Below, in pieces: positions 69 to 22,345 of a stretch of 24,547 nt of DNA (position 1 is its first letter; each line of letters opens with the position of its first letter). Source of the stretch: a virus. The translations under genes were made by a program, and so were the position numbers. Below the pieces are notes generated by a model, which saw nothing but the letters and a program-made list of their open reading frames with translations, had not been told where the DNA came from and made no database searches. The stretch is taken from positions 1 through 24,547 of IMG/VR virus record IMGVR_UViG_3300017770_000156. One strand, written 5' to 3'.

Positions 69-3000
69 TTAATTTGATCTTAGTATTGAATCTCTTACTC
101 TTTTGTTTCGCTTTCTTGTAGCCGCTGCTTTTTTTGCTGCAGCAGATCGCTTTGCTTTTTCTTTTAATAAGTACTCTCGTTTTTCATCAGGAGTCATCGC
201 GGCTAGTTTATCAAACTTCTTTTGCGTTGCAACAAGTTTATTATATTCTCTTTTTTTCTTTGAAGCATCTTTTTTCTCTTCCTGTATAGCTAGTTTAAGA
301 AAATCGTGATATTCATTCTTAGCGCTAACATCCCATGTCCTCCAGCCTAAGGACAAAGCTATTCTTTGATATGCAGTGTTTCTATCATCAACCGCCTCCG
401 CTAAAGCATTAATTTCAGATACAACCCTGTCTAATGGTAGGTTAAGAAATGCTGAAGATAGACCGCCTATTATTTGATATGATGGGCTTAAATTTAAGTT
501 ACCTTGCTTGTCTAAAACTTCTAAACCTCTTTTTTCTATAATACCCCTGTCAAATTTATTTGTTTGTATTGCCCCATACACTTTTCTAAGCTTAGAACCT
601 ATAGGTGGCGATATGTTTGCAAGCTCCAACAATGTATAAGTATGATCAGCGGTAAACCCTTTCTCTTCTTCTTTTTCGTAGCGCATGTATGCGTTTTTAA
701 TCGTAGATGCTATTGCACCATACAAACCGGAGCCTCGCAATATAGAATCAAGCATTCCATTCAGTATTTTTAACTCTTTTTTATCTAGCTTTTTATCAAC
801 ATCCTCTTCATCTTCTTCATCACTAAAACCGGGTATCATAGCGAATAAAGCTTGTTGTAATGAGTTAAATATTAAGTTTTGTATAAAACCATAATAAGCA
901 ATCTTACTAACATTAGTTTTAAAGTCGCCACGGCCGTTTATAAGATCCTGGCCGGCTTTTTTCATTAATCTAGTGTATTGCATCGGCGTATTTTGGAAAG
1001 CCAATACAAGGCGCCCTAAATGGCTGGACTGCTGAGCGGATATTAACATAGGGTCACCTGACTGCTGTGTCTCATCTGATATTTTACTAAAATCTTCGAA
1101 CGCTGCAGCTTCGGCATCCGCTTTTGACATGCCTTGTTTTGCATATGTTTTAGTCCTGTTTATTAAAAACGTAGCACCTCCGGTCGCAATAGCCATACTA
1201 TCTGCTATTTGTGTAGGGGTAAAACCTATTTTCAATAAATAAGAAACTATAGCACCTGCTTTGTTTTTACTATTCCTAGCTTGATTCGCAATTTCCTGTT
1301 CTTGCACGTCGGACTTTAAACCTCCACGTCTTTCTTTTAGTTTGTCTGAATTGAATATTTTAGACCATGCCTCCCAATAAGCCGGCTGATTAGCAAAAGC
1401 AATACCCGCTTTTAACGGATTGTTGTCGCTCCAGTTTACAAAGTTAGCAAATGATAACATCTGTAACACAGCGGATCTTCTGTTAAAAAACATTATAGTA
1501 CCAACAGAATTGTTAACCCAGTTTAACCATTGTCTTTCGTATTTACCAGGCTGGCTAGGTCGGTTTACACCAGACTTCATTCTGCTTATAATATTATTTA
1601 AAGCTTCAACGTAACCAGTCCCATATACCGCTTCAAGTTTATTTAGCATAGCCTCGTCAAATACAGCGTCAACATTTTCAATAAACTCAGCAAGATATTC
1701 TTTTCTGCTAACTTTTTCGGATATTTCGTTTATATCTTGTAATATGCTACTCACATCCCAATACTCATTAGGCTTAACCCATTCGTCTTTTTTAGTTATT
1801 AATTGTAATCCATCGGCAAAAGCTTTTACATCAGCATCACCTTCGACAAATTTGTTTATAGCTTTTAAATCACGCTTAGATAAACCAGACACTTCAAACC
1901 CAGATTTATTATACAAATAAATTCTTATAGCTTGGTCATAAGTATATTCTAATCCTGGCACTTTCTTACCTAATTTTTTTCTAACTGTGGGGAACATTTT
2001 TCTAAGTGCCGCGTAATCATTTTTTAATGCTCTCTTGGCTCTTTCCATTGCTGCTACACCTGTTACATAAGGATTAACTAAATTATCTTCAAAAAACTTT
2101 TGATCTGCATCTCCTTGCTTTCCTTTGCCGGCTAAAACATAAGATGTTAAACCTCTAAAGTCTTCTGCCCCATATGGTAAAAAGAATTTAAATCTACCTT
2201 TATTAGCTCCTTTTCTTCGCGCAACCGCTTTTGAGTAATTAGCCTCGGCTTTTACATTTTTGTTGCGCTCAATCATTTTATTAAGACTTTTATTTAGACC
2301 TTTGCTAAATTTAATTTTAGCTTGTTGAACATCAGATTTTACATCAAATAAACTTAAAGTGTCTTGTACTGCTTTAACATTTTTAAAATGATCGTCTGCA
2401 AAATAAAAATCATTAAATCCTTCGTTAACTTTCCCAACCATCCACTCAGCTTTTGCTTCTGGCCTTCCGTCTGCGAGTCCTGTTATATTCTCTAGCTTTA
2501 AATCTAAACCTAAACCTTTAGCAAATTTTTGTATCGCTAAAGCTGATTCCTGCGGCCTTGCGGTAAGTATAAATATATTGTCATTACCAAACTTTTCCTG
2601 TCTTTTTAATGCTAAATCAAACAATGGACCTTTTCTGCCTTTAACCACTTTGTTAAACTCGCTAAAGTCAAAGGTAGCACCTTGGTTTTCTAAGTTAACC
2701 GATTCAGCTGCAAACTCAGCTGGTGTAATTTTTTTAGTTGGGCCAGGAACTTCTTTTAAAACCTCTTGCTTTTGTTCTTCTGAAAGATTATCAAATGATC
2801 TTTTAAAGCTAGGAAGGTCTTTAAATACAGTGCTATTAAATTTTCTTCTAGCAGCTATGTCCAATATCTCTTTGTCCTGAACTGGCATTTTAACTATTAC
2901 CATGCTTTTAGATATCGCCACGGTATCGTCAAAGTCTAACACAGTTATACCTTTAGGATTTATACCGTAGTTTAAGCCTTTTGAAAGCTTGAAAGCGTTT

Positions 3001-6000
3001 TCATATGCTATACTCGCTTCTACTACAGCTGGCGCGTCTGTTTTAACCGTTAATGGATCAGACGTGGAATTAAAATAGTCTGCATAATTTTGACCAATAA
3101 TTTCTCCATTCTCTAAAGATTCCAAAGCATATTGTACTTTTCCTCTCGTTAGTATATTATAATAGCGACTGTACCATGGCGTTTGCCCAGCAACATAACC
3201 TGCAACTGCTATAGGTCCTAAACCTTGATCACCAATAACCTTATCCATTGTCTTAGGTATTAGTGCGACCTTATAATCGTTTTTAAGCGCTTGTAGGCTT
3301 ATAGACTTATCATCCTTCACGATAGACTTGTACATGTCAAAAAGAACCCGTCTAGCAGGTAAAGCATGCTCGTATCTATAATCATCTTTATCTAATGAAT
3401 TAAAACCCGCTGTTCTATATAATACAGGAGCAGCTACTCTTAAAGCTGTATTAGTTCCGCTATTCATTGCCGCTAAAACCATAGCTTGTATGTCGGGGTT
3501 TTCATTTTTAATACCCCTAACGACAGCTGTAGTAAATTCCCAAGCAGCTGTTGCATTTTTAATATCTTTATCGGTATTAAAGTTTGCTTCAAGCATGCCT
3601 TTAGTAACGCTGCCTGTTGCTGTAAACTTTTTCTTTATAACTTTACCGTTTTTTAAAACAATGTCACCGTTTTTCTGTATACTTTCAAGCTGCGGGAACA
3701 TCCTTTTTAAAGCCGGAAGCCATTGAGCCTCACCTCCGTAAAAATCAGCTCTAAAACTTTCATTAGCGTCTTTAAAGTTACGCATTCCAACTTTGCCAGA
3801 GTTAGCAAAAGTACCGCTAAAGAAAGCCACAACAGTCTCTATAGGTAACTCGCTTAACGCATTTTCAATAGCCTCCTGGGCTATATAAACGTTCGTGCCT
3901 GTGTTCCATAAATTTTTAATAGAATCGCTAGCACCTGTATATAATTGTATAGAAGCATTGCCATCTACATCTTGCGCAACTTGCTCTACATAATCTGTTA
4001 GTTCTTGTTCACTTACATTAACATACTTTTTAGGGAATGATTTATTTAACGGTTTTAATAAGTTAAAAAATTGCTTAGATATACCGTCATATTGTTTTTT
4101 AGTAAATTTATCGCCATATGTGTTTTGCAGAACTTTTTTAATTGCAGTTGGCGTTTTACCAAAATCATTGTCCATGCCTACTATAAGTTCTTTTAGTTTT
4201 GGCAATCCATCTCTAAAAGTTTCATTTTCTGCAGGTGTTAATGTAGCTAATCCTTTACTAAATTTTATATTACCTCGTTCTGTATCTTTTTGTACTTCTT
4301 GAACAAAGTTATCTGCAAGTTCAGCGCCTAATGCTGCTTGATTATTTACAAATGCTTTTCTTAATTCACTGTCTGGCTTTTGTAATTCACTATTAAATAA
4401 ATCAAACGCAAGCTCTTCGGCTAATGCCTTCGATAAAGATTCTTTACGACCACGAATAACAGCTCCGTCTTTAAACATGTAAGACAAAAATTGCTCGTCA
4501 GTAACTTTATCTGCAATATTAGGTAATCTTCTAACTATATCAGCGCCTGATGTTCTACCCGCTTTATCTGTATCAACCGTTTCTCTGTCAATCTTTTTGC
4601 CCTGCCAGTCAGATGTAAACTTACCATTAACTTGTTTTTGAACAGCAAATGGCATAGCGCCCATCAACCAAGTGGTTGTCATGTTTTCTAATATAGGTTT
4701 CTTAAATCTAAGATAATTTTTTCTTAGTATGCCATCTTTCTTTGAGCCTAACCTTTTCTTAAATTCAATATCAGCCTGCTTACCCATTTCTTTTTTAATC
4801 TCAGCTACCAAAGGAGTAACTGTTTTGTTTATAGAAATGTCGGCGCCTAGTTTTGATTTTAGCACTCTTATTGTACTAAGCAATTTTTTCTGTACTGATT
4901 CTAAAGCGTCAGCGGGTAATACTTTGCTTTGTAATAAGTTTCTAAATTTAGGCTTTTCTTTTTTTGCTGTTTGTACATCATCGACTACAACTTCAGAAGC
5001 TTTTTCTAAACCAGTAAGCTCTTGTTTTGTTACAACATCAAGATAATCTGGATTTGCTCTTAAAGCATCTAGTATACGCTTAGCGATACGGCCGTTTATA
5101 AAGCCATATAAGCTGCCCCTACCGTCCCATTTAGTATTTTCTTGTGCTTCATATACCCTTGCAATTACGTCAGCTTGTAGCTCTTCTCTTACGTTTGGAT
5201 CTAAATTAAGTCTATTACGTATTTGTGCATCTACCATGCCAAATAATTCATTAGCTATAATGTTTTGACTGGCGCGTGAGGGTAATTGTTCTAATGGTAT
5301 TGATTCAAGTCTTTGTCTTACCTTCTCTACAGCCTTTGATGATTTAATTTTATCACCCTCTTTTTCTTCCCCTTCAGGCAATTGGTATACTAATGCTCTA
5401 TTTTGCCAGTTAGCAACAAACGCATACACATCGCTCGGTGAATTAATTTTAAAGAAATGAGAATAGTCGCCATTTACTTTTTTAAGTATACTGTTTACAA
5501 ATGTTTTTGCCCCATATATATTACCAAAACTACTTTTAGGCAAAACGCCTATTGCTGTAAAGTCTGAAACTAATTGCAATAACTCGTCAGCGTCTATTCC
5601 TTTAACATCTACATCTTTGTATAGGGCAATTCTAGCATTAAAATTATCAAAAGCTTCTTTAGATATGCTTCCTTTATTAAACCTAGACCTAACATCATTT
5701 ATAATACTACTAACCATATCGTTAGAAGCGCTAACAATTTTGTTGTCTTTTATTATACCCTGCTGTTTAACTTGCCAGTGGCCCAACTCATGCAAAGGAG
5801 AAGCCGAAGCAACCTCACCGTCAATACCCGGTTGTTGCATATTTCTTGCGGCGATTTCATTAAAAATTAATATATCATTGTTAACCTGAGCTGCGCTGTT
5901 ATTACCTTCGTTCATAGCCGTATAGCTATATTTTTTGCCATCAAGTTTGTTTTCTTTTAAGTAAGCGTTAAACTGCTCCTCGTTATTTATATCTATAACA

Positions 6001-8825
6001 TTAACACCTTTAGTTTCTTTAGCGATTTCTTTAAACATGTTAAACCTGCGAAAGTTAACCTCCGTGACAAGTGGGTTTGGTGTGTTTTTTGCTAACTTTT
6101 CTATTTCAGCTTCTGATCTACCTAATATTGATTGGCTTTCATTATATAAAACTTGAGACGCATTTTTTAATCGCTCGAATTCTCTACGATCTCTTGCATC
6201 AAAACTAGCTAAATCTAATTGGGAAGCTTGGTATTTTAATTTTCTAATGCTTGCAGCATTCTCAAAGACTCTATTTATTTCACTGCCAGTAAGACCTTTT
6301 AAATTTAAAGGTATTGCTGTATTTAAATCTGCAGCATCACTTATTAGATTGTCTCTTTCTTGTTTTAAATTTCTAGCTTCCTTTGTTCTGCCGTCTAATG
6401 TGTTTAGCTTATTTGATACATCTATTAATTTATCGCGTATTTCATTTTCTTGTCTAGCTTGCTTTCTAGTTTTAACTTCATTGTTTAATGCAGTCATAAC
6501 GTTTTGGCTTGCACCCGCTCCACCAATAGCTAAAGATGTTACATACGTATTTCTAAAAAATTCGCCATCTAAACCATCAATTAAACTTTTAGGATTTTCC
6601 GGTTGAAAAATTAAGTTATCACTTAAATTTTGCGCAATTAATGTCGCACCTTCTTCAATAAATTCTATACCTGGACCTATAGCCCCAAAAGCAGTAACGG
6701 TACCTAAGCCTTTACTTATATTAGTGCCTAAAGTTTCACCGAATTGTTTTCTTAACGTGTTACCGCCTATGGCTCTTGAATATTTTTGAAAGTTTTTAAC
6801 AAAACCTAAAGTTCCTAGTCTTTCAGCTAAAGCGGCAGTTCCACCATAAATTGTACTGTTAAACCCTTTTTGAAAAGCGTTTAAGCTTAATATGTTTTCT
6901 TGATATTCTTTATCTGCCTCTAATTTATTTATTTCGTTTAGGGGCGCACCGTTAGCTTTTGCTTCTTCTATTTGTTTATTTAAAGCAGCGATCATTTTTG
7001 GCGCTTCTCTTTGCTGAATCTCTAAATTAGATAACTGCCCACCAGCTTCCATAGTAAAGAATATACCCATTGAAGCATTGGATGCTTGTCTTATAGCGGC
7101 AAGCCTAGCAGCGCCGGTTAGCCCCGCACCTGCACCCATTGTTGCAGCAGCCACAGCTATTGAAGGGGAGTTCCTGATGAGCATGTCCCCAAAATACTGC
7201 GCTGCACTTGAGTCATCATCGCTTGTTAAAGCTTGTGGTAAATATTTTTGAGCCTCACTTTGCAGTCTTTGATTATAATTAGTTGCAGCTTCATAAGTTA
7301 TACCACCATCAAAAGGAGAAATTATAGCACCCCCTAATTGGGCTGCTGAACCTAAAAAAGCGCTTTCCCATGTGTTCGCTAGCAAATCCGATGTTTGGTA
7401 AGACTTAACTAAAGCGGCGTCAGCCACATTTGTCGTGCTATACACATTTAAATCATTGGTAAGTTTATCAGCTCGGGCTTGAAGTATTAATTGATCAGCT
7501 TGTAATTCGTTCATTAATACCTTTTGGCGATCAAATAAGCTATCTCTAAAAGCAACCTCCTCAGGATTGTTAAAATTATCTTGTTCTACATTGTAGTTTC
7601 TAATTTCATCCTGTACATTATTTAACTCTGTTGCTTGAGTATCAAATATTTTTACTGCACTTTCAATCTCACCCGCTTCTTTTGCTATTCTTTTTTCTTC
7701 TCCTTCTTGTACTTTATTAAGGGTAAGCTCTCTGTTAAATGGGGTATATGTTCTACCCTGAAGTTTTTCAGTTCTAACTAATGGCCTTCCGAATTTAGCT
7801 TCAAAATCTCTAGCATCTCTAAGCGCTCTTTCTTTTTCATTTAATAAAGCAGTATTTTTCTTTGTAACAACTTCATCAGTTCCAGTAAATTGCTCTAATA
7901 AATCCTGTCTTTTTTGTTCTTCATCAGTAACATAAAATCCGCCTATGTCTCTTGTGTAATTTTCAGCAGCCTTACTTCTTTTACTAGCTACAACAGAGTC
8001 TATAGTCTTGTCGTTTTTGTTATCTTGAATTAATTCTAAACTAATATACTGGTTTACGTTTTCTTTTGTAAGATTTTCACCGTTTGCTTCAGCTAATTCT
8101 TTGGCGGTTATATACTGTTTGTATTTTACAGGGCCTAAATGGTTTTTTAAATCAGTATCATAATCATTTTTATATTCTGAAAATCCACTTTTTCTTTCCT
8201 TACCTTGCCACATTTGGGGCGATCCGTCGGAGTTTCTTAATGTAGGAAAAAATTGAGGTCTATTCATACCAGTTATTTGACCATCGTCGTTTAATCCAGT
8301 AAAATAATCCCCTGCGATCTCTTCATAATTTGCTTCAGGTGTTTCAGCTTCAATAACTGCAGTAAGCTCTGTGCTGTCTTTTTTAGCTTGTTTTACTTCG
8401 TCTGATAACTCTGCTTTAACAACAACCTCGTCAAGCATCGCGCCCTCGTCAAAGTTTGTCGTTTGGATTTTAGTATTTGGAAAAGTTTTTGCAACATAAA
8501 CATCAAATTCCGCAGGGTATCTACCTTTGTCCTCTAAGTCTGCATAGAAATTATTATATTCGGATTCAGACATTGAAGCGTCTTTACCGTTACGTTTATA
8601 ATTAATATATCTTTCAGGTGGTTGATTTGATTCCAATAAACCATTTTCCGAATTGGAGACCGTATTGTTTTTCGACCCTACATTTGTCTCCGCACTTGCA
8701 GGGTCTTGTTGAAAAGTATTTTCTTCTATTTTGTATTGTTCTAAATCGCCATAAGCGTTTTGAAAAACACCGATGTTAGAATCATTAATTTCATACTCAA
8801 CGCCGTCTATTTTTATTTTGAACAT
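69..8825 (-). CDS. Giant multidomain internal virion protein (2918 aa), probably ejected with the DNA
   Basis: A single uninterrupted 2918-residue frame. Visible parts in order: N-terminal head with LDEVVVKA at 131-138; coiled-coil/charged region to about 480; Gly/Ala-rich hydrophobic stretches about 550-780; zinc-protease-like HELGH at 1012-1016, with DADEL downstream as a possible third ligand; a stretch about 1192-1263 resembling sigma-70 region 2 (DGRGSLYGFINGRIAKRILD); a segment ending near 1520 that I recognise from uncultured marine phage giant proteins; HAD phosphatase motifs DFDDT (D1964, D1966), LTAR (T2088) and ADDH (D2144, D2145); a long helical C-terminal half; and a Lys/Arg-rich tail over the last 60 residues. 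Motifs of the type KFSKG recur at 1159, 1521, 1946 and 2170. Its place after two smaller internal-type genes parallels T7 gp16, and crAss-like phages also carry giant cargo proteins. The start ATG has an A/T-only leader 15 bases long. Enzymatic activity is inference; a tape measure is unlikely because no tail-tube genes are nearby. Confidence 0.7.
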   Translation of the reverse strand: MFKIKIDGVEYEINDSNIGVFQNAYGDLEQYKIEENTFQQDPASAETNVGSKNNTVSNSENGLLESNQPPERYINYKRNGKDASMSESEYNNFYADLEDKGRYPAEFDVYVAKTFPNTKIQTTNFDEGAMLDEVVVKAELSDEVKQAKKDSTELTAVIEAETPEANYEEIAGDYFTGLNDDGQITGMNRPQFFPTLRNSDGSPQMWQGKERKSGFSEYKNDYDTDLKNHLGPVKYKQYITAKELAEANGENLTKENVNQYISLELIQDNKNDKTIDSVVASKRSKAAENYTRDIGGFYVTDEEQKRQDLLEQFTGTDEVVTKKNTALLNEKERALRDARDFEAKFGRPLVRTEKLQGRTYTPFNRELTLNKVQEGEEKRIAKEAGEIESAVKIFDTQATELNNVQDEIRNYNVEQDNFNNPEEVAFRDSLFDRQKVLMNELQADQLILQARADKLTNDLNVYSTTNVADAALVKSYQTSDLLANTWESAFLGSAAQLGGAIISPFDGGITYEAATNYNQRLQSEAQKYLPQALTSDDDSSAAQYFGDMLIRNSPSIAVAAATMGAGAGLTGAARLAAIRQASNASMGIFFTMEAGGQLSNLEIQQREAPKMIAALNKQIEEAKANGAPLNEINKLEADKEYQENILSLNAFQKGFNSTIYGGTAALAERLGTLGFVKNFQKYSRAIGGNTLRKQFGETLGTNISKGLGTVTAFGAIGPGIEFIEEGATLIAQNLSDNLIFQPENPKSLIDGLDGEFFRNTYVTSLAIGGAGASQNVMTALNNEVKTRKQARQENEIRDKLIDVSNKLNTLDGRTKEARNLKQERDNLISDAADLNTAIPLNLKGLTGSEINRVFENAASIRKLKYQASQLDLASFDARDRREFERLKNASQVLYNESQSILGRSEAEIEKLAKNTPNPLVTEVNFRRFNMFKEIAKETKGVNVIDINNEEQFNAYLKENKLDGKKYSYTAMNEGNNSAAQVNNDILIFNEIAARNMQQPGIDGEVASASPLHELGHWQVKQQGIIKDNKIVSASNDMVSSIINDVRSRFNKGSISKEAFDNFNARIALYKDVDVKGIDADELLQLVSDFTAIGVLPKSSFGNIYGAKTFVNSILKKVNGDYSHFFKINSPSDVYAFVANWQNRALVYQLPEGEEKEGDKIKSSKAVEKVRQRLESIPLEQLPSRASQNIIANELFGMVDAQIRNRLNLDPNVREELQADVIARVYEAQENTKWDGRGSLYGFINGRIAKRILDALRANPDYLDVVTKQELTGLEKASEVVVDDVQTAKKEKPKFRNLLQSKVLPADALESVQKKLLSTIRVLKSKLGADISINKTVTPLVAEIKKEMGKQADIEFKKRLGSKKDGILRKNYLRFKKPILENMTTTWLMGAMPFAVQKQVNGKFTSDWQGKKIDRETVDTDKAGRTSGADIVRRLPNIADKVTDEQFLSYMFKDGAVIRGRKESLSKALAEELAFDLFNSELQKPDSELRKAFVNNQAALGAELADNFVQEVQKDTERGNIKFSKGLATLTPAENETFRDGLPKLKELIVGMDNDFGKTPTAIKKVLQNTYGDKFTKKQYDGISKQFFNLLKPLNKSFPKKYVNVSEQELTDYVEQVAQDVDGNASIQLYTGASDSIKNLWNTGTNVYIAQEAIENALSELPIETVVAFFSGTFANSGKVGMRNFKDANESFRADFYGGEAQWLPALKRMFPQLESIQKNGDIVLKNGKVIKKKFTATGSVTKGMLEANFNTDKDIKNATAAWEFTTAVVRGIKNENPDIQAMVLAAMNSGTNTALRVAAPVLYRTAGFNSLDKDDYRYEHALPARRVLFDMYKSIVKDDKSISLQALKNDYKVALIPKTMDKVIGDQGLGPIAVAGYVAGQTPWYSRYYNILTRGKVQYALESLENGEIIGQNYADYFNSTSDPLTVKTDAPAVVEASIAYENAFKLSKGLNYGINPKGITVLDFDDTVAISKSMVIVKMPVQDKEILDIAARRKFNSTVFKDLPSFKRSFDNLSEEQKQEVLKEVPGPTKKITPAEFAAESVNLENQGATFDFSEFNKVVKGRKGPLFDLALKRQEKFGNDNIFILTARPQESALAIQKFAKGLGLDLKLENITGLADGRPEAKAEWMVGKVNEGFNDFYFADDHFKNVKAVQDTLSLFDVKSDVQQAKIKFSKGLNKSLNKMIERNKNVKAEANYSKAVARRKGANKGRFKFFLPYGAEDFRGLTSYVLAGKGKQGDADQKFFEDNLVNPYVTGVAAMERAKRALKNDYAALRKMFPTVRKKLGKKVPGLEYTYDQAIRIYLYNKSGFEVSGLSKRDLKAINKFVEGDADVKAFADGLQLITKKDEWVKPNEYWDVSSILQDINEISEKVSRKEYLAEFIENVDAVFDEAMLNKLEAVYGTGYVEALNNIISRMKSGVNRPSQPGKYERQWLNWVNNSVGTIMFFNRRSAVLQMLSFANFVNWSDNNPLKAGIAFANQPAYWEAWSKIFNSDKLKERRGGLKSDVQEQEIANQARNSKNKAGAIVSYLLKIGFTPTQIADSMAIATGGATFLINRTKTYAKQGMSKADAEAAAFEDFSKISDETQQSGDPMLISAQQSSHLGRLVLAFQNTPMQYTRLMKKAGQDLINGRGDFKTNVSKIAYYGFIQNLIFNSLQQALFAMIPGFSDEEDEEDVDKKLDKKELKILNGMLDSILRGSGLYGAIASTIKNAYMRYEKEEEKGFTADHTYTLLELANISPPIGSKLRKVYGAIQTNKFDRGIIEKRGLEVLDKQGNLNLSPSYQIIGGLSSAFLNLPLDRVVSEINALAEAVDDRNTAYQRIALSLGWRTWDVSAKNEYHDFLKLAIQEEKKDASKKKREYNKLVATQKKFDKLAAMTPDEKREYLLKEKAKRSAAAKKAAATRKRNKRVRDSILRSN

Positions 8826-11070: not shown

Positions 11071-12594
11071 TTATGAGCATGTTATCGTTGGGTTAAGGGC
11101 AGGTGGATTTCCATCACCTGATATTAATGAAGCTGGTGGCATTAGTCGAGCACATTGCCCTGTAACAACCCCTCCCGCGGGCACTGTTTCTTGTGTAATT
11201 GCGCCAGTGTCACAATCAGCATATTCATATACGGAGTCTACAGTTCCCTGTGAATTGTCAAAATCAAGCGCAGCACATACGTACGTTTTAGTAATGTAAG
11301 TATCAATATCATTTGTAAGTGCGTAACTCATATTCTGTACGCCTGTAAATGGCGAAGTAATATCAACCCTAAGTGTTAAATCAGAACTTCCTAAATTTAG
11401 TAGCTTTGCTCCTTGAGTTATTGTAAAATTACCATCGGCTTCTGTTTTTGTAAAATCAGAATCAACTAAAGAATTAGTATCTGTCCATGCTATAGTGAAG
11501 TCCGCTAAAGGTGAAATAGTAATATCATGGGTCAGACTGCCGCTTTGTGTAAAGCTATAACTAGCGTCTAAAGCCAATGGTGTAGGATTAGTAACTGAAA
11601 GATCAGTATCACCAGAGGTTATTGTTCCACTTAATTGAATAGAAGTAATAACTCTTCTTTGGAAAACTATTGGATTAGGCTGACTAAAATCAGGACTTAA
11701 ATCCGTCCCAGGAACAACAAATGTTAAATTGTGTGTTGTGGTTGATGTTACCGTTGGGAATGTTATAGGTACAAGCTCTTGGCCAGAAGGCAATACACCT
11801 GTAATGGCATTTGTGCCGTTAGAAAAAGTAGCGCCGTTATCTATTGTTAAAGAATAGTCTGCCCCTTGAACACCTGTTATAGCTAGATTTCTAACCGTCT
11901 GCGCGGCTGGAACTGTTGTATTTATTGAATATCCAGTTACATATTCTAAAATAACGGGTATTTCTATTGCGTGTGCATATACGTCTATTTCATCGCCGCT
12001 ATGATTTACAAAAGGATATGTGTAGTCTGCATTAACTCTTATAGCGGTTAACCTGTTATCCGAATCAAGTACAGAGCCTGTTGTATATAAGTTGTAGTCA
12101 GTTGGATCGCCAGTTCTAAGAGATATGGTTGGCGTAGATTGAAAATAGTAACCCGTATCGGCTTGTATAAGCTGTGATAATATTTCTTCCGTACTTTCCG
12201 CCGGCCCTGAATTTGTATAAGGTAAGTTTTGGGGCAATGGCGTAGCGTTTGCTGTATCATAAAATACAGTACCTGCAATAGTTACACCAAGCTCTTGAGC
12301 TGCTCCACGCATACATACTTTTATATCAAGATTATTACTAGGCATAGTTGCTGTCGATACAAAAACAACTGTCAGCATAACGTTTTCACCGTCTTGTGTA
12401 AAATAAGAGCTAGGTACATCTACCTCTGGGTTTGACGAAACAACCGTAAAATTACTTGCCTCAATCTCGTAACCCTGATTAGGTGTTATTGTTAATACAG
12501 CTTGAGGAGCAACACTGCTTATCAAATCGCCGCCTGGTATTATGAATTCTTCTGATGTTACCGTAAAATTATCTATTGCTACTATATTACTCAT
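11071..12594 (-). CDS. Beta-rich virion surface protein with Ig-like character (tail spike/fibre candidate)
   Basis: A 507-residue protein very rich in Thr, Ser, Asn, Val and Ile and poor in Lys, as in adhesin-like proteins built of beta-sandwich units. Residues about 25-60 (VLTITPNQGYEIEASNFTV) resemble bacterial Ig-like or BACON-type repeats. A central part (about 235-400) has alternating strands with TISPLADFTIAW and similar. The last 80 residues hold four Cys (YVCAAL, YADCDTG, GQCAR, TITCS), which could form disulphides outside the cell. Its start overlaps the stop of the 1906-residue nozzle-type gene by one base (TAATG), which points to translational coupling and a shared structure. A tail fibre, receptor-binding or decoration role is inferred from composition and neighbourhood. 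No trimerisation or peptidase domain is recognised. Confidence 0.45.
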   Translation of the reverse strand: MSNIVAIDNFTVTSEEFIIPGGDLISSVAPQAVLTITPNQGYEIEASNFTVVSSNPEVDVPSSYFTQDGENVMLTVVFVSTATMPSNNLDIKVCMRGAAQELGVTIAGTVFYDTANATPLPQNLPYTNSGPAESTEEILSQLIQADTGYYFQSTPTISLRTGDPTDYNLYTTGSVLDSDNRLTAIRVNADYTYPFVNHSGDEIDVYAHAIEIPVILEYVTGYSINTTVPAAQTVRNLAITGVQGADYSLTIDNGATFSNGTNAITGVLPSGQELVPITFPTVTSTTTHNLTFVVPGTDLSPDFSQPNPIVFQRRVITSIQLSGTITSGDTDLSVTNPTPLALDASYSFTQSGSLTHDITISPLADFTIAWTDTNSLVDSDFTKTEADGNFTITQGAKLLNLGSSDLTLRVDITSPFTGVQNMSYALTNDIDTYITKTYVCAALDFDNSQGTVDSVYEYADCDTGAITQETVPAGGVVTGQCARLMPPASLISGDGNPPALNPTITCS

Positions 12595-15500
12595 TATGGT
12601 ATTGGATTTACGGGTTGACCTGTATATATGTCAATTGTTATTAAAGTTCCGGTTGTAAATGCCGTACAAAGTATTTGTTGTGCGTTGCCGTCAAATACAT
12701 TAAACCAAAGAGCGGTGCTGTGGCAATTAGCGGTTGTAGTACCAGTATTAAATGTACCACATTCCATAAAAAACGTAATCTGACCATTGCTTGAGTTTTG
12801 CGCTAATGTCTGGGCATCCGCTTCACTTATTTTGAAAGCACTATATCTATCGCTCGTGCTTCTAACCTGCCCTTGTGGCGTATAGTATTTTTCATTTCCA
12901 CTTGGCGCACCTAAATCGGGTGTTGGGTTGCCATCACTATCAACATAGTTTGAGCCACCGCCGCCTGTGTTAGAAATATGAACTCTACCAATTTCTACAG
13001 CGTTACCAGAATCCGCTGCTGCAAATATATTAAATGTACCCCTGCTGCAACTATGACCACCTGAAGCTGGAGATGCGCATACCGTTGTTTGTACCCCAGT
13101 GCTAGGGTCAACCCATACCCCTTGTGGTTCGTTAGTAGAAACATACCTACCTATTATGTCTAAGTTAGTTAGTAAATTAGCTAAACCTTCTACGGTTACA
13201 TTTTGTGTAGCTGTATTAGGCGGATTATCCGGATCGCTTACAACCAAATCAAAAGAGTATGGTTGGGCATCTGGGACTGTGCCTGTTACAACGGCGGTCC
13301 CGTCTCCGTTATCAGTAAGTGTCAACCAGCTTGGTATATTACTTGAAGTTATAGTTAACTCCGCTCCAGTATGATCTGCGTCAGCTACTCCGACATTATA
13401 AATATACGTATCACCTATAGCATACGCTGTAGTTGGTGGAGTTGTTGTAAAGTAAGGAATATCCGCGACTGGATCAACCGCAATTGTAACTGTACCAACA
13501 TTGCTTACAAGTTGTGATCCATTAAAGGTATCAGTTGCCGTAAAGTTAAATGCCCCAGCGTCACCGTTAAAGTTTGCGTTTGGAGTAAAAGTAACAATGC
13601 TGCCATTTATAGTTAATGCCCCATTATTTGTGTTATCCGATGTAATATCATATGTAATAACCCCTGCTGGTATATTATTGTCTGTAGTTAAATTAGCAAG
13701 GTCAATTGTCGGACAAGTAGTACAATCTTCTATAGAGGTTAAACTTCCATTCATAACATAAGGCGCAACTCTTGCCACAAAACAAGACGGGTCAACTTCC
13801 ACATGTAAAACAAATGAACTTTGAGTATCCCCTGATATTTCCGCACGTCCAATACCTTGCATTGAAAACTCTGCGGCATCTAAATTGTTATCTAAATTAG
13901 TACTAAATTGCGTGCCAATACCTTTTATGTAATTAAAGTATTTGCCTTCTTTATCCAAAAACTCTTTAACGCTACCTTCTTGAAGATTTGTTTGTATTAA
14001 ACTTGTATACCAACCAGGCGTAAACACCTCGTTTGTTGGATTATAATTCGGATTAGCTTGTAATTCAGCTAAATTAAATGTTTGCTCTTCTGGTTTTCCT
14101 TCTACCTGGTATCTATATTCCCTAGACTCTGTGCCTGAATAATTTAATGTTTTATATTTTTTAACAATATTTGGCTGGTCATTTATTAGAAATCTAATCG
14201 AGCTGTCATATTGAACACCATAAAAATTATTTCTTGTAGCGCTTGTTGCCCCGTGCTCCCAAATCTTACCATTTTTAATACTGTAATATTTGTTATTTAA
14301 GGATATAGCACCTTCAGGTATAAAATCTTTACGAGAAGTCCAGCCTTTAACGTCTTCTTTAAAGGAAACAGTAGTTCCAGTTTGAGTTAATGACGGGTTA
14401 AAATAATTAAGTTTAAGCTTATCTTTCCATTCATCTGTAAGATTATTAAGCGTAAGGTTATAAACGTCCTTATCGTCGTCGTATGAGCCTAATAACACGC
14501 TTGATGAGTGTAAGTTATCAGCAAAGAAATCACGCATATTAGCGGATGAAATTTCTTCTAACCCATTTCGTGATAATCTTAAAATAACACCTCTGTTTTT
14601 ATCAGTAAAGTATGCTCTAAAACCATAAGTAGCAAAGCTCTCTGGGTTTTTAGATATACCATATTCACCAAGGAAAGGTATTGATTGCCCCAACACGGCT
14701 GTATTACCTACAATGTTTGTGTTACCATCAGCATTAAATAGCGCATCTTTATTTGCTAATACCTTAAGAACTTTATCTTCACAGAAAGCAATTAAGTCAG
14801 TATCTCTTGAGTGCAGCTTTTGAACACTTGTATAATACGGGTTTAAATCTTTAGTTATTGGTTCTGCAGCTATAAACTGGTTTAACCTATTAATACCAGA
14901 AGTAGAATTAAATATTTGTGAGAATATTAAACCTGTGGCTTTTGTTTCTTCGCCATACGCCTCGTCTAAAACAGTTGAAACAACAGGACCCTTGTCTATA
15001 CGGGTTGCATTGAAATCATCACGTATACGATCAGATTCTACGCCTTGCCCAAAAGAATAGCAATTAAACCAATCTAGTTTTTGTAATGGTTGGTGAGCAG
15101 CCATAGTGCTACCGGCATTTTGTATTTCATATATATCGCTAGCTGAATAATATAAGTCTAAATCAACAGCTTCCTTTGGGTAAGTTTCAAATATAGCAGG
15201 ATTATTAGATGTGTATGTATCCGCATCTACCGCATATAGTCTTAAAAATTCTACACCTGTTCTTGTCGGGTTTGCCTGTCCAGTATTAATAGGTGGTAAA
15301 CCTACAGACGTAGCTATAGGCTTATCTATTTTTATATTCCATCTTACAACTCGTCGGCTACCATATTTACCAGAACCATGTCTACCAGTTCTTCTACTAG
15401 CAACACAGTACGCCGAGCGATAGCTCATTGTTATATTGTAAGTATGAGAATCAAGCTCTTTATCTGGATCGTCTGTAATTCTAAATATACTACCTGCTGT

Positions 15501-18314
15501 GTCTAACGCTTTAGCAAAACCTATATGATGGCCAGCGCTTGGTTGATTAGTTGGCCAATTCCACCAAATACCTTTTCTATTGTAGAAAGCTTTAGATTGT
15601 TTCCAGGGATTACCAAATCCGTGAAATGATATGGTTAAATTTCTAGATCCTACATCTATACCTAATCCTTGATATGGTCGATCGTCTTGATTACCACGCT
15701 GATATTTAACATCAGGAGACGCTCTTCTTCTTACATCTAATGGAGATGATTTATCCCAAAACCATCCTTTACTATTATCCGGGGCTGTATCTCTCCAGAA
15801 ACTACTCTTACCGCCTTTTTGTATATAGGCTACTTCTTTTTGGTATTCTATAGTTAACTGCGCGTCTTCAGCTTTTTTAATTATACGTTGTTCTAAAGCG
15901 TTGTCTTTGTATATTTTTACAAAAAATCTACCTTGATATTCAGGTTTATTTTCAGATCTAGATTGATATATTGCTATGTCTAAGGGTATACCTGTTTGTC
16001 CTTCTGGTATAAAGTCTAAGCTTTCATCAGTAGGGAATCTAAGTTGAATTCTATATATATTACCTTGTTTTTTTATCCATTCTATTTCAAAATAATCAGA
16101 TATATTTGAACCAGAAAGTATTCTACAAGAAAGATTGTTCTCTTTGTTTAAATCAGCTAATCCACCACCGGATCCCGTACCGTCTTCTTTACCGTCAAAA
16201 TCATCTTCGGGTATTTCAAAAAACCCTTTGTTAACTTGAGGGTATCCCGATCCCGTAAACTCTGTAGTTTGCCTACCAGCTTGGTGTCTTCTTATTTTAA
16301 CAGCATCTGGCGCTTCGTTTGATATAGCTAATATCTTATATCTAGCGGTTTCTTCAATAAACGAATTGTTGTCATGCTCTTTTTTAAGCTCCAAAAACGT
16401 TTCTTCGTCGACTTTATTCCTGTCGGCAGACGGAAAAGACAACCATACACTACCATCTTCTGGCAGATAAAATCTATCTAATGCTAAGTTATAATACTCG
16501 TTAGATGTTTCTTTTACATAAAACTTGTAATGTGTTGCCCACTTTGGCGGGTTTGAAAGCATACCTATCTCTATAGTATTGTATAGGTCTGCAAATTCTT
16601 TCGCTAATGATCTACCACCGCTATCATTTGTAAATACCGGCGTTTGCCTACCGTATTGGTCTAAATATACCACACCCATTTGATATGTGCGCATAGACTT
16701 TAAAGATGGCACCGGCGTAGAGCCGTCGGGATCTGATGATATATTTATAAATTGCCCTGGGTTATCTGGGTCTTCAATGATATCTTCATTTTTTGTAGGA
16801 TCATGCACAATACTAAACTCAAAGTTTGGTATAACCTCACTGTCAGCGAAGTCAACCATGTCAAAGTTTTGTGTGTAGTTACCGTATATAATTCTATTTC
16901 CAGTAATTTCTTGAGCCAACGCTTTTTTAGGAACGTTATCATAAGGTCTTAGTAATTGGTTAGACGGCAATAAAGAAGATATAAGCTCTGTCTCTATTTT
17001 AATTCTACCGCTATAACCTGTTGCCCCGCCTTCTTGATAGCTTGTATCATTCCATTGATTATATGATTGGCCAGGTAAATTTGGCGCAGTTTTTTCTATA
17101 GTGTCAACACGATACACATTGGTACTGTTTGATTCTTTGTAAAGTATATCTATAGCTATTACATCATCAGGAATGTTAGGCGTAATAAAATCCCTTACTT
17201 CTAAGACTCGTATGTTATTAGTCATAGCCAAGTTATAACCATCAACACCTGTATACTCAAACTCATCACCTGGTATAAATGCTATCTCTGTAAAAGGAGA
17301 AAATGTGGAAAATTGGTTATCATCGTACTTATAACGATATGCGAAGCGAGGAAATTTAAACTCAAATAATGGATCGTCTTGTTCCAGTTCCACATCAAAC
17401 CCTTGTGGCCCCGCGGGTAGATCCTCACCTACGCTTTGTAATTCACATATAGCCTGCGCTTCTGAAACAACTTGTGTAACTTTTACTCTAGCTTGGAATT
17501 CTCTTAAGAAATTATCGTCGGGATCTTGTATTGTTAATAATAAAAAGTCACCTGCTATATAGTCTACTGCGTTTGTCCAGTTTAAAGTTATAACAGTACC
17601 GAAGTCCATAGAGATCGTTTCATCAGGATCATCTTCTGGGTCGGTAGACAGTGTGTTAAACTCAAATGTAGTAGTTGTTTCTATCTCACCATCCCTAACA
17701 GTATTCTTTTTATATATAGTTGGTCGTAAAAGAGGTGATTTTTTTATAACAGTAATATCAGCTTCTATGAAGTTTCTGCCGAATATTTGTGTGTGTGTAG
17801 CAAAATCAGATGAACCCTCTTTAAATTTCTTTATTTCAATTTTTTTAGGCTCAGTTTGGTTATCTGTAAAAAATAAAAACCCTTCGAGTATGTTTACACC
17901 CGTAATTAAAAAGTTTTCATTAAACCCAAGTATACCGTTTTTATCAACTAAAATAGGGAATACAACATCTCTTATTTGGTCATATTCAACAATAGCATCT
18001 ACGCTCTGTGATGTAATAAACCAATATATCTTTTCTGTGGTTGCATCTTTTACGGTACCTATACATTTAGCGTCAGCAGGTATATAAGCCAGTCCAGAGG
18101 CTGCCCATGTGGTATGCAGCGTAGTTATATCGTTTAAAGTACGATTGACCATCTGAACATTACCAACTAATGTCTGTAATGCACCGACGTCTGAGCCTTC
18201 GGATGTAGCTACCTCTAGGTTTAACGCATCCCTATACTCGCCATTTGGAACTAAACGCTCATCAAGGTCTTTATTCATTTTACCCTTGAGAAACGTATGA
18301 ATCAATTCTGGCAT
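12594..18314 (-). CDS. Tail nozzle/muzzle-type structural protein with C-terminal Ig-like and Cys-containing extension (1906 aa)
   Basis: The N-terminus (FLKGKMNKDLDERLVPNGEY at about 8-27, then RDALNLEV) matches the conserved start of large tail proteins in uncultured marine phages. It resembles the opening of the P22 gp10/T7 gp12 nozzle family (crAss 'muzzle'), which form a beta-propeller ring closing the short tail. The long middle part, to about residue 1525, is beta-rich. Then comes an added region: a cadherin/tandem-95-like Ig unit about 1530-1622 (NFNGDAGAFNFTATDTFNGS), a second putative Ig unit about 1622-1710 (LTLTDNGDGTAVVTGTVPD), and a final domain of about 195 residues with five Cys and Gly-rich loops, a candidate receptor-binding head. 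It follows two connector-type genes at 3-base spacing and overlaps the next gene by one base. Tail location is well supported; the adhesin role of the C-terminus is inference. Confidence 0.65.
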   Translation of the reverse strand: MPELIHTFLKGKMNKDLDERLVPNGEYRDALNLEVATSEGSDVGALQTLVGNVQMVNRTLNDITTLHTTWAASGLAYIPADAKCIGTVKDATTEKIYWFITSQSVDAIVEYDQIRDVVFPILVDKNGILGFNENFLITGVNILEGFLFFTDNQTEPKKIEIKKFKEGSSDFATHTQIFGRNFIEADITVIKKSPLLRPTIYKKNTVRDGEIETTTTFEFNTLSTDPEDDPDETISMDFGTVITLNWTNAVDYIAGDFLLLTIQDPDDNFLREFQARVKVTQVVSEAQAICELQSVGEDLPAGPQGFDVELEQDDPLFEFKFPRFAYRYKYDDNQFSTFSPFTEIAFIPGDEFEYTGVDGYNLAMTNNIRVLEVRDFITPNIPDDVIAIDILYKESNSTNVYRVDTIEKTAPNLPGQSYNQWNDTSYQEGGATGYSGRIKIETELISSLLPSNQLLRPYDNVPKKALAQEITGNRIIYGNYTQNFDMVDFADSEVIPNFEFSIVHDPTKNEDIIEDPDNPGQFINISSDPDGSTPVPSLKSMRTYQMGVVYLDQYGRQTPVFTNDSGGRSLAKEFADLYNTIEIGMLSNPPKWATHYKFYVKETSNEYYNLALDRFYLPEDGSVWLSFPSADRNKVDEETFLELKKEHDNNSFIEETARYKILAISNEAPDAVKIRRHQAGRQTTEFTGSGYPQVNKGFFEIPEDDFDGKEDGTGSGGGLADLNKENNLSCRILSGSNISDYFEIEWIKKQGNIYRIQLRFPTDESLDFIPEGQTGIPLDIAIYQSRSENKPEYQGRFFVKIYKDNALEQRIIKKAEDAQLTIEYQKEVAYIQKGGKSSFWRDTAPDNSKGWFWDKSSPLDVRRRASPDVKYQRGNQDDRPYQGLGIDVGSRNLTISFHGFGNPWKQSKAFYNRKGIWWNWPTNQPSAGHHIGFAKALDTAGSIFRITDDPDKELDSHTYNITMSYRSAYCVASRRTGRHGSGKYGSRRVVRWNIKIDKPIATSVGLPPINTGQANPTRTGVEFLRLYAVDADTYTSNNPAIFETYPKEAVDLDLYYSASDIYEIQNAGSTMAAHQPLQKLDWFNCYSFGQGVESDRIRDDFNATRIDKGPVVSTVLDEAYGEETKATGLIFSQIFNSTSGINRLNQFIAAEPITKDLNPYYTSVQKLHSRDTDLIAFCEDKVLKVLANKDALFNADGNTNIVGNTAVLGQSIPFLGEYGISKNPESFATYGFRAYFTDKNRGVILRLSRNGLEEISSANMRDFFADNLHSSSVLLGSYDDDKDVYNLTLNNLTDEWKDKLKLNYFNPSLTQTGTTVSFKEDVKGWTSRKDFIPEGAISLNNKYYSIKNGKIWEHGATSATRNNFYGVQYDSSIRFLINDQPNIVKKYKTLNYSGTESREYRYQVEGKPEEQTFNLAELQANPNYNPTNEVFTPGWYTSLIQTNLQEGSVKEFLDKEGKYFNYIKGIGTQFSTNLDNNLDAAEFSMQGIGRAEISGDTQSSFVLHVEVDPSCFVARVAPYVMNGSLTSIEDCTTCPTIDLANLTTDNNIPAGVITYDITSDNTNNGALTINGSIVTFTPNANFNGDAGAFNFTATDTFNGSQLVSNVGTVTIAVDPVADIPYFTTTPPTTAYAIGDTYIYNVGVADADHTGAELTITSSNIPSWLTLTDNGDGTAVVTGTVPDAQPYSFDLVVSDPDNPPNTATQNVTVEGLANLLTNLDIIGRYVSTNEPQGVWVDPSTGVQTTVCASPASGGHSCSRGTFNIFAAADSGNAVEIGRVHISNTGGGGSNYVDSDGNPTPDLGAPSGNEKYYTPQGQVRSTSDRYSAFKISEADAQTLAQNSSNGQITFFMECGTFNTGTTTANCHSTALWFNVFDGNAQQILCTAFTTGTLITIDIYTGQPVNPIP

Positions 18315-20932: not shown

Positions 20933-22345
20933 CTAACTTGTTGCTTTCAACAATACGAAGTTGTTGGCAGCTTGAACACACAACGCTCTTTCAGATAAGA
21001 AGTGTACGTTCATTTCGTCAGCGTCAGAAGTATAGTTACCTCCTACTGATCCAGTCACCCAAGACTTCATTCTACGGTCATCAGCTTCAGAAGCTCTGTA
21101 GCGGATGTGTAGGAATGGTCGAGAGATGTTCTTTCCGAGTTGCTGATCGTAAACTGTAGAAGTTCCAGCAGGAACTAGTACACCTTCAACATCTGCAACT
21201 AATCCACGAGTTGTAGAATCGTTTAGATATTTCCAGTCAGTTTTGTAGAAATCGTAAGAACCTCTTCGGAATCCTGAGAATCCAAGGTTTAGCGCCATGT
21301 CTTCTGAATTGTCGAATACACCGTAAGATGTACCGCCAGCTCCGTAAGAATTTTGAGCAGCCAACATATTGTCAATCGCTAGTGAAGTACCACGATCTAA
21401 GAAAAGCATGTTTTCTTCGATTGATCCTTGCTTATCTAGCTCAGCTAAAATAGTATCAAAGTCCGCAAGACCTGCGCCACCAGCAGCGTTGAAGTCAGCA
21501 TCAGTATAAACTAATCCTCTATCTTCAAGAGCAGCAAATAGACCTTCAGATCCTGTTACGTTAGTACCACCTCCAAAACCAGCAGCAGCGGTAATGTTTC
21601 TTACTGTGCCATCGATGTTTAAAGATTTTTCAGCTTCGACCATAGCCATTTCAAGTTGATCTTCGAAACGGATACGAGCTTCGTGCTCAGACTTTAAGTA
21701 CCAAAGGTAACCAGAAGTTCCAGCCTCAGTAGTTACTTCTACCCAACCAATTTGAGCAACATCAGAACCATTTACATTATACTTATCTCTAAGAATAATT
21801 GGTTTGTTGTTGAAGGTTGTGAAAGAAGCGTCAATTGAGTTACCAGCATTTTCAGTTCCTTTAGCGTACTCAGAACCATAAACAAACACCTTAACGTCAG
21901 CACCAGTCATTGTAAGACCAGCAACCTCGCCGTAAGTGTCAACAGTTACAGTTTGTCCAACTACGTCTTGTACATATGCTTTTTGAGTAATGAAGCCTTT
22001 AGATACAACAAGTGTCATTCCTTTTCCAATCAAGTGACCAGCAGGGAATGTTAAAGTTGTAGTAGAAGCTACTTCAACGTCATCATAAGCAATGTGTAAA
22101 CGTCCTTGTTCTGACCAAGTAATTACGTCAGAAGCCATAGGCATTTCAGCGCCTACCATACGTAAAAATCCAGCAATAGTACGATTTCCATATCGTTCTA
22201 CTTCCTTCTCATATACCTCAGGCAAAAATTGTTGCGTGAAGTCTAAGTCCGCGACAGAAAGGTAGTTGTCTCCAAACAATCCCTTAATAGGTCGTGGGGT
22301 TAAATGTGCGAGAGCCGTTGGGCTCCCAGTAAAAGATCCAGCCAT
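20933..22345 (-). CDS. Major capsid protein (HK97-fold type, 470 aa)
   Basis: A 470-residue protein with the character of a major capsid protein. It is rich in Gly, Ala, Asp and Val with few Cys. The N-terminal arm is followed by a helical segment ERYGNRTIAGFLRMVGAEMP (about 50-69). A beta-rich region with EQGRLHIAYDDVEV then follows, and a long helix near 220-245 (KSEHEARIRFEDQLEMAMVE). The conserved C-terminal block HIRYRASEADDRRMKSWVTG (about 411-430) leads into SVGGN and LSERALCVQAANNF. I recognise this block from capsid proteins of uncultured marine phages, and the layout resembles crAss-like capsid proteins. The gene sits between scaffold and connector genes as expected. No fused protease or separate N-terminal propeptide is obvious. 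The leader before ATG (ATTAAAAAATTAATAAA) is A/T-only, and a strong RNA hairpin follows the stop, consistent with high, stable expression. Confidence 0.85.
   Translation of the reverse strand: MAGSFTGSPTALAHLTPRPIKGLFGDNYLSVADLDFTQQFLPEVYEKEVERYGNRTIAGFLRMVGAEMPMASDVITWSEQGRLHIAYDDVEVASTTTLTFPAGHLIGKGMTLVVSKGFITQKAYVQDVVGQTVTVDTYGEVAGLTMTGADVKVFVYGSEYAKGTENAGNSIDASFTTFNNKPIILRDKYNVNGSDVAQIGWVEVTTEAGTSGYLWYLKSEHEARIRFEDQLEMAMVEAEKSLNIDGTVRNITAAAGFGGGTNVTGSEGLFAALEDRGLVYTDADFNAAGGAGLADFDTILAELDKQGSIEENMLFLDRGTSLAIDNMLAAQNSYGAGGTSYGVFDNSEDMALNLGFSGFRRGSYDFYKTDWKYLNDSTTRGLVADVEGVLVPAGTSTVYDQQLGKNISRPFLHIRYRASEADDRRMKSWVTGSVGGNYTSDADEMNVHFLSERALCVQAANNFVLLKATS

Follow-up and report, generated by a model that had tools for sequence, protein, structure and literature searches.

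A giant protein of an uncultured crass-like phage joins zincin-like, sigma-region-2-like and phosphatase modules and has an exchangeable slot edged by a recurrent motif

The stretch of viral DNA analysed here, IMG/VR record IMGVR_UViG_3300017770_000156 (24,547 nucleotides; called the window below), is the complete 24.5-kb fragment that makes up its record, and it encodes a giant protein, P0001. We found that this protein joins a zincin-like metallopeptidase domain, a stretch resembling sigma-70 region 2 and a phosphatase module of the haloacid dehalogenase (HAD) fold in one chain, that the HAD module occupies an exchangeable slot whose swap partner is a P-loop kinase, and that a short motif recurs at the edges of the slot. 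From this domain anatomy, exchange of slot contents and motif statistics, read from sequences and structure models, we propose with a probability of about 0.5 that the giant is a cargo or pilot polyprotein, encoded by a crass-like podovirus with relatives among flavobacterial phages, and that its zincin would separate the modules around delivery. The functional steps of this proposal, set out below, are all ones that we infer.

A single frame with relatives in uncultured viruses

A preliminary description of the window, made from its letters alone, had reported one uninterrupted frame of 2918 residues, and we confirmed it; the frame starts with ATG and runs on the minus strand from 8825 to 69 (Table 1). 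Because three further, longer IMG/VR contigs (L002-L004) encode the giant full-length at 100% identity, it is no assembly accident. Matches of the whole giant to Pfam and PHROGs were all sub-threshold, none passing a curated Pfam cut-off, and there were none among PDB sequences and none to cultured phages by tblastn at E 1e-5. The Pfam scan of the whole protein gave no transglycosylase match.

Relatives came from uncultured viral contigs. An initial scan gave 30 distinct loci, and profile scans gave 459 stretches for the C-terminal part and 166 for the core, each encoding a relative; from either set the best 80 were kept. Removing 83 near-copies from the 191 frames with a profile match left 108 proteins, 87 of them with both core and C-terminal part. 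The motif and slot counts below refer to 81 proteins that have both of these anchors in order (27 of the 108 were dropped for a missing or misordered anchor), and the window protein is counted among them as its copy L002. Across the first set, relatives shared about 20% identity with the window protein near the N-terminus, climbing to about 80% around residues 2450-2650.

Table 1. Features of the giant protein and two context genes (coordinates are window positions; PWM, position weight matrix; pLDDT, predicted local distance difference test)
Feature	Residues	Position	Strand	Basis
Giant protein P0001, whole frame, 2918 residues, ATG start		69..8825	minus	open frame
N-terminal pilot-like element	~440-880	6186..7508	minus	profile matches to flavophage giants; Gly/Ala-rich hydrophobic stretch 555-573
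Zincin-like metallopeptidase domain	~940-1150	5376..6008	minus	conserved HEHE; PPEP-2 overlay
HELGH zinc motif	1012-1016	5778..5792	minus	conserved in alignment
Presumed third zinc ligand	E1081	5583..5585	minus	conserved in alignment
Weak boundary motif DKIKSSKAVE, zincin / sigma-2-like part	1158-1167	5325..5354	minus	PWM 9.6, below 10.67 threshold
Sigma-70-region-2-like domain	1176-1260	5046..5300	minus	Sigma70_r2, PDB profile and VIA matches
Conserved core domain	1290-1517	4275..4958	minus	columns conserved at least 90% in alignment A5; high pLDDT
Boundary motif GNIKFSKGLA, core / variable slot	1518-1527	4245..4274	minus	PWM 22.5
Third module	1528-1942	3000..4244	minus	conserved Y-E-H..P (E, H at least 90% in alignment A6, 46 sequences)
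Boundary motif NAFKLSKGLN, ahead of HAD	1943-1952	2970..2999	minus	PWM 4.6
HAD-fold phosphatase module	1955-2168	2322..2963	minus	invariant motifs; T4 Pnkp fold match
HAD motif I, DFDDT	1964-1968	2922..2936	minus	invariant in alignment A9
HAD motif II, ILTARP	2086-2091	2553..2570	minus	invariant in alignment A9
HAD motif IV, FADDH	2142-2146	2388..2402	minus	invariant in alignment A9
Boundary motif AKIKFSKGLN, variable slot / C-terminal part	2169-2178	2292..2321	minus	PWM 21.3
Highly conserved C-terminal part	2179-2850	276..2291	minus	alignment A2: 70% mean column identity, 20 sequences
Basic tail	2851-2918	72..275	minus	charge count
Muzzle-like protein, 1906 residues (context)		12594..18314	minus	crAss_MUZ_C E 6e-8; phrog_14478 E 9.8e-132
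Major capsid protein (context)		20933..22345	minus	phrog_13704 E 2.1e-103; Crass_capsid E 1.5e-4, below cut-off; 49% identity to Maribacter phage Panino virion structural protein

A phosphatase module in a slot that can hold a kinase

The set of HAD phosphatase motifs noticed in the preliminary description is well supported by invariant motifs and fold matches. In an alignment of 34 HAD modules (A9; near-copies and two modules with long inserts left out), the columns D25, D27, T149, K186, K193, D205 and D206 were invariant in 34/34, so that HAD motifs I-IV are all present. Pfam assigned DUF2608 to 24/34 of these modules and HAD to 8/34. Residues 1523-2200 were modelled from 46 sequences with a mean pLDDT of 84.0. 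In the VIA structure comparison, the best row for this model was the T4 Pnkp 3'-phosphatase (Z 12.0, root-mean-square deviation (rmsd) 2.5, 127 residues), and four of the top five rows were T4 or bacterial Pnkp (T4 at 12.0, 11.2 and 10.8; bacterial Pnkp1 at 11.6); numerous other HADs followed at Z 9-10. The best Foldseek row was likewise a HAD (E 0.02, probability 0.99), as were most of the leading rows; together with VIA Z values of up to 12.0, these rows indicate a HAD Rossmann fold. Searches with the HAD profile gave no meaningful match among PDB sequences (none in one search, one designed protein in another), the best match in a structure search of BFVD (E 0.038) was a viral protein without a name, and the third module and HAD gave no match to cultured phages at E 1.

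The contents of the slot differ from relative to relative: among the 81 proteins, 42 hold a HAD, 11 a Pnkp/zeta-like P-loop kinase, one (L010) both and 27 neither. The kinase matched AAA_33 and Zeta_toxin over the Pfam cut-off. In NCBIfam, where all matches were below cut-off, it matched bacter_Pnkp in 12/12 and PNK-3'Pase in 11/12 sequences, and in the PDB a fungal kinase, four entries listed as Metallophosphoesterase and zeta toxin were level at E ~0.001. We take the four Metallophosphoesterase entries to be Clostridium Pnkp kinase. Because phosphatase and kinase swap places and once co-occur, we favour nucleic-acid end healing over other HAD roles as the putative activity of the slot enzymes.

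Two results weigh against the proposal here. Foldseek found no PDB match to the 1523-2200 model at E 0.001, and the NCBIfam models for homoserine kinase (12/12) and shikimate kinase AroL (10/12) matched the slot kinase as well as Pnkp did. The kinase evidence by itself does not single out Pnkp. A 5'-kinase in the same chain, as in Pnkp-type enzymes, is absent from the window giant, and kinase and HAD stand together in 1 of the 81 proteins, L010.

Several slots have an unusual content. In L010 (L010:15443-16765) the P-loop kinase interrupts the HAD between its motifs I and II, so that a single slot holds a phosphatase-kinase; this stretch matched eight phage records, all hypothetical proteins, through its kinase part only. 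The HAD modules at L088:9050-10030 and L145:12284-13270 have an insert of more than 100 residues between motifs I and II, which seems to us reminiscent of ADP-ribosyltransferase, a likeness that no search confirmed. The slot region L016:11729-12856 gave a sub-threshold Rv2466c-like match (E 8.8e-4) and may hold another exchangeable module. Pfam searches of ten slot regions gave two sub-threshold DUF6934 matches and nothing else.

A K-x-S motif at the edges of the slot

We found a short motif, (I/V)-K-x-S, at the two edges of the slot, where the core ends and immediately ahead of the C-terminal part; its commonest residues are (V/I)-K-F-S-K-(S/G/T)-L. The core/slot edge carries it in 74/81 proteins, compared with 13% of random windows in the same proteins, and the slot/C-terminal edge in 52/81, compared with 4.4% by chance. 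Within the slot, [KR]xS precedes the HAD in 32/37 unique stretches (15% expected) and the kinase in 10/12 (14% expected). The 37 stretches derive from the 41 HAD-bearing proteins recognized by pattern (43 by profile) and leave out the window's own, which also has [KR]xS. No other protein of the window, among 11, matched the PWM above its threshold of 10.67 (best 6.5).

The two edges of one protein also resemble each other. Their variable motif positions agree at 1.38 of 3 positions, compared with 0.61 after shuffling (47 unique pairs; reached in 0/10,000 shuffles). When the proteins were thinned by C-terminal identity, this agreement was reached by 0/5000 shuffles at <80% (24 proteins), 1/5000 at <70% (16 proteins) and 47/5000 at 65% (11 proteins). 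A cleavage signal recognized by the zincin of the same chain could produce such a pattern. A linker, a docking signal for packaging by the portal or for binding a partner, or a recombination junction for module swaps could also lie at the edges of an exchangeable slot, and recombination through shared ends would likewise make both edges alike within one protein. These alternatives are possible, together at odds clearly short of even, but the likeness of the edges persists through the thinning, and the motif is kept in the 27 proteins whose slot has neither HAD nor kinase (27/27 at the first edge, 16/27 at the second).

Other observations count against a cleavage signal. Between the zincin and the sigma-2-like part the motif was found in 62/77 sequences, hardly above the 52% expected by chance, and the window's copy ahead of the HAD scores low. 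The motif pattern and the PWM were made after the sequences had been seen, and the PWM is circular for the giants. The equivalents in cultured phages lack the pair of boundary motifs, the sole match being in ctfjg026 (16.3). The 3859-residue ctfjg026 equivalent (L035:741-12320) contains two HExxH motifs along with this one strong match.

A zincin-like domain ahead of the core

The zincin-like HELGH motif of the preliminary description, which begins at residue 1012, is supported by invariant ligands and one fold match. The ligands H1012, E1013, H1016 and E1081 read HEHE in 74/77 aligned sequences (window included) and are gapped in the other 3. Because the alignment has a mean column identity of 19%, this degree of conservation is above chance, and it gives the HExxH with a distal third ligand that marks zincin metallopeptidases. 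Residues 900-1535 were modelled from 77 sequences with a mean pLDDT of 83.3, and residues 22-243 of the model overlay PPEP-2 in VIA (Z 5.3, rmsd 4.5, 144 residues). We take PPEP-2 to be a zincin. The giant of the cultured flavophage elemoF also has a zincin region, which was matched at 35 bits with filters off and includes HEIFH.

The case for a zincin is lessened by three results: PPEP-2 is 1 of the 50 VIA rows listed, Foldseek gave no PDB match to the 900-1535 model at E 0.001, and no HExxH was found in the equivalents of phi38:1, phi19:3 and Panino. If the domain is an active peptidase, its substrate may be the chain itself or the proteins of the host. The zincin among the fold matches, PPEP-2, is an endopeptidase, and for such domains the available text of Iyer et al. 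2017 (PMC5512222) gives the cutting of host proteins as an alternative. We consider an effector directed at host proteins fairly unlikely here, as a repeated motif of the same chain that co-varies within each protein would be expected of self-processing and not of a host substrate.

In one relative, an in-frame stop (L024:12680-12683) splits the giant just upstream of the zincin domain into 993 and 651 residues, which may be a real split or a sequencing error.

A helical stretch resembling sigma region 2

The preliminary description had also claimed a stretch like sigma region 2, in which ELQADVIARVYEAQE begins at residue 1215. This is the least supported of the three motif claims: the resemblance is real in part of the family, at middling scores, and a divergent subgroup has no sigma signal. 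The profile used here (alignment A7) was built from 51 of 75 distinct segments; the other 24, near-copies and divergent-looking segments, were initially excluded and tested afterwards. Sigma70_r2 was the sole Pfam family found for the 91-residue window segment (E 0.13, model positions 22-67 of 71) and the commonest among the 51 chosen segments (8/51, best E 4.2e-4), all of these matches being below the curated cut-off. A PDB profile search with the 51 segments gave ten matches, six of which were sigma factors (E 0.39-1.6). Sigma factors made up 20 of the 50 rows listed by VIA; 12 of these were compact region-2 overlays (rmsd 2.3-3.4), and the other 8 had an rmsd >15. SigA reached Z 6.5 (rmsd 2.7, 82 residues) and sigma70, over its residues ~370-447, Z 6.2. 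Many of these sigma rows are one E. coli protein, repeated.

Other results stand on the opposite side. Among the 24 segments initially excluded, Sigma70_r2 was found in 1/24 (E 0.049), which makes 9/75 overall, and 0/3 of their matches in the PDB profile search were sigma factors. A longer window segment matched no Pfam family, and profile scans of the giant gave no Sigma70_r4 match. The sigma rows in VIA lie at Z ~5-6.5, level with TFIIB and cyclins, and the top row was MoeN5 at Z 8.1. In the divergent subgroup (L020, L023, L029, L134 and others), this place is taken by a different conserved stretch (VFNPI...GEFIF.N) without sigma signal. Because of the middling VIA scores, the ties with unrelated helical proteins, the lack of a Foldseek match at E 0.001 and the subgroup without signal, we call residues 1176-1260 sigma-2-like and not a sigma factor.

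The resemblance could reflect nothing but a common arrangement of three helices, with no link to transcription, and we regard this as a serious possibility, somewhat below an even chance. It would account for the Z values shared with TFIIB, cyclin and unrelated helical proteins, for Pfam matches that all stay below the cut-off and for the near absence of sigma signal in the segments first excluded. On the other hand, Sigma70_r2, the VIA overlay on sigma70 and the ECF sigma factors of the PDB profile search all indicate the same region.

The VFNPI...GEFIF.N stretch may itself be another exchangeable part. On a related contig of 64.9 kb, a separate gene encodes a sigma-like protein (L196:11466-12215), which matched Sigma70_r2 at E 0.0013, short of the cut-off; the contig also encodes a GroEL-type chaperonin (L194:6175-7725).

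Evidence bearing on a virion role

Towards the N-terminus, the giant is related to proteins of cultured flavobacterial phages. With filters off, a profile of residues 440-880 (23 sequences) matched the giants of elemoF (62.1 bits), phi38:1 (gp101, 38.7), phi19:3 (gp129, 19.2) and one domain in Panino (15.7), compared with at most 3.4 bits for reversed-sequence controls. Under default filters nothing was reported in the giants of cultured phages, and the ctfjg026 equivalent was unmatched even with filters off. This element contains the Gly/Ala-rich hydrophobic stretch of the preliminary description (29% G+A over residues 501-600; best 19-residue hydrophobic window 555-573), and the basic tail described at the other end was seen as well, with 31 K/R against 18 D/E in the final 120 residues.

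The giant is the final gene of a crass-like structural block and lies downstream of the muzzle gene, a position of the crassvirus cargo type. In phi38:1, phi19:3 and elemoF, the protein at the corresponding place bears a structural annotation (for phi38:1 gp101, by similarity). Gene position supports a virion role, and so does the homology of the N-terminal element to these three giants of cultured flavophages. Against it, the Panino and ctfjg026 equivalents carry other names and are not annotated as structural.

Within the virion, the C-terminal part and the N-terminal element might be an ejection apparatus in which the enzyme-like modules are relics or spacers, or act in the virion or envelope only. 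Several features suit an ejection or pilot protein: conservation is far higher in the C-terminal part than elsewhere (70% mean column identity), the cultured phages share the N-terminal element, and three of their giants do without HExxH. Yet the catalytic residues of the zincin and the HAD are kept amid diverging surroundings, and a spacer is not expected to give way to a P-loop kinase whose motifs are intact. We consider this alternative unlikely, and prefer a cargo or pilot polyprotein whose modules are functional.

A proposed sequence of events and known systems

The giant would be packaged as cargo and ejected with the DNA, and its N-terminal element may assist the crossing of the envelope. 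Either before entry or after it, the zincin would free the modules by cutting at the K-x-S signals or close by. The sigma-2-like fragment could then bind host RNA polymerase and favour early phage transcription, and the HAD of the slot (a kinase, or both, in relatives) may heal nucleic-acid ends, plausibly those of RNA cut by host defence nucleases. The most specific form of this scheme is a virion-borne, self-processing polyprotein whose zincin cuts K-x-S, whose freed sigma-2-like part captures host RNA polymerase and whose Pnkp-type cassette undoes the cuts of a host anticodon nuclease before phage genes are expressed; taken as a whole, it seems to us quite improbable.

The preliminary description had interpreted the protein as a toolbox of effectors delivered at infection. 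That interpretation holds in part: the exchangeable HAD/kinase slot and the boundary motif strengthen it, and the sigma-2 module can be included for part of the family only. The check put forward with it, structure prediction followed by fold search, did not leave the protein without any zincin, sigma-2 or HAD fold. As to transcription, T7-type RNA polymerase (PF00940) was found in 0/6 related contigs, but control genomes were equally blank; this search, which covered the one polymerase type, does not establish that a polymerase is absent, and that counts against the proposal. No RNA polymerase-associated protein was matched in the giant over the Pfam cut-off.

The closest known systems are the polyvalent proteins. 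As described in the available text of Iyer et al. 2017, these are long multi-domain phage proteins whose zincin metallopeptidase (MPTase) is thought to process the chain, with a zeta-like kinase and a 'jump-start transcription' theme (PMC5512222). Like them, including the N4-type virion RNA polymerase with its zincin MPTase (PMC5512222), the giant is very long and joins several unrelated domains with a zincin. It contains at least two distinct effector domains in one chain, zincin and HAD (the sigma-2-like domain is less certain, and the kinase occurs in relatives), and the zincin would be the MPTase of the set. It differs from them in the sigma-2-like domain, the Pnkp-like HAD, the repeated boundary motif and the lack of any Pfam match over cut-off; among the named polyvalent-protein Pfam domains, the whole giant matched PF18472 alone (E 0.029, below cut-off). 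In the main text of PMC5512222, 'sigma', 'phosphatase' and 'linker' do not occur.

The positional equivalents of the giant in flavophages (phi38:1 gp101, phi19:3 gp129, elemoF CDS 88 and Panino CDS 69) lie in the same general order of portal, scaffold region, capsid, two virion proteins, muzzle, small genes and giant; muzzle and giant are separated by four small genes in the window, as against three in phi38:1 and elemoF. The N-terminal element is common to the window giant and those of elemoF, phi38:1 and phi19:3, and the zincin extends to elemoF. In contrast, the giants of phi38:1, phi19:3 and Panino are those without HExxH, none of the four has the pair of boundary motifs, and Panino CDS 69 is annotated as a tRNA methyltransferase and not as structural. 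In PhicrAss001, the cargo proteins gp45-gp50 presumably follow the muzzle gp44 directly, going by their numbering. They are large proteins carried in the virion of a muzzle-bearing virus, some of them tied to transcription (Bayfield et al. 2023, PMC10172136, available text). The cargo there includes RNA polymerase-associated proteins (PMC10172136), none of which was detected in the giant in a comparison by description.

T4 polynucleotide kinase/3'-phosphatase and bacterial Pnkp gave the best VIA rows for the HAD, the slot kinase of relatives is weakly Pnkp-like, and L010 has both. Unlike those enzymes, phosphatase and kinase are here modules of a giant phage protein, which usually has one or the other, and models of zeta toxin and of homoserine and shikimate kinases match the kinase about equally well. 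T7 gp14-gp16 and the P22 ejection proteins have a role in ejection through the envelope. Their likeness to the giant lies in this proposed envelope-ejection role; both are named in the available text of PMC10172136.

We found no publication on a sigma-like domain in virions, an exchangeable Pnkp-like slot or a K-x-S cleavage motif, judging by the titles and abstract openings of the matches listed; most subscription journals lay outside the search, which is no proof of absence. With that reservation as to print, the sigma-2-like part, the exchangeable Pnkp-like slot and the boundary motif appear to be new elements of polyvalent phage proteins. Polyvalent proteins have long been suspected of processing themselves; if the proposal is true, there would be a sequence signal for this, and the idea would be testable with the motif, protease and cassettes named here. 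The proposal may also show how such phages, in which no RNA polymerase was detected (with the PF00940 control blank), act on host transcription at once. The swappable phosphatase/kinase slot would then be a case of phages adapting a counter-defence that they carry pre-loaded, comparable to the swapping of ends in polymorphic toxins.

Remaining parts of the protein and neighbouring genes

The core profile gave no match among PDB sequences. A candidate DxxGR polymerase motif in residues 1290-1520 was dropped, its D and R falling outside the columns conserved at 90% or more. The third module was modelled with high pLDDT apart from roughly its first 100 residues. The C-terminal part had no PDB sequence match, no Pfam match over cut-off and no PHROGs match.

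All genes of the structural block run in the same direction, in the order portal C-terminus, a 403-residue protein at the scaffold position, major capsid protein, a further gene without assignment, two virion structural proteins, muzzle-like protein, four genes of 507, 110, 212 and 404 residues, and the giant. By muzzle and capsid, the closest named phages infect Flavobacterium, Cellulophaga, Maribacter and Tenacibaculum. Towards its C-terminus, the muzzle-like protein has sub-threshold cadherin/Ig-like matches (PF17892, PF17963).

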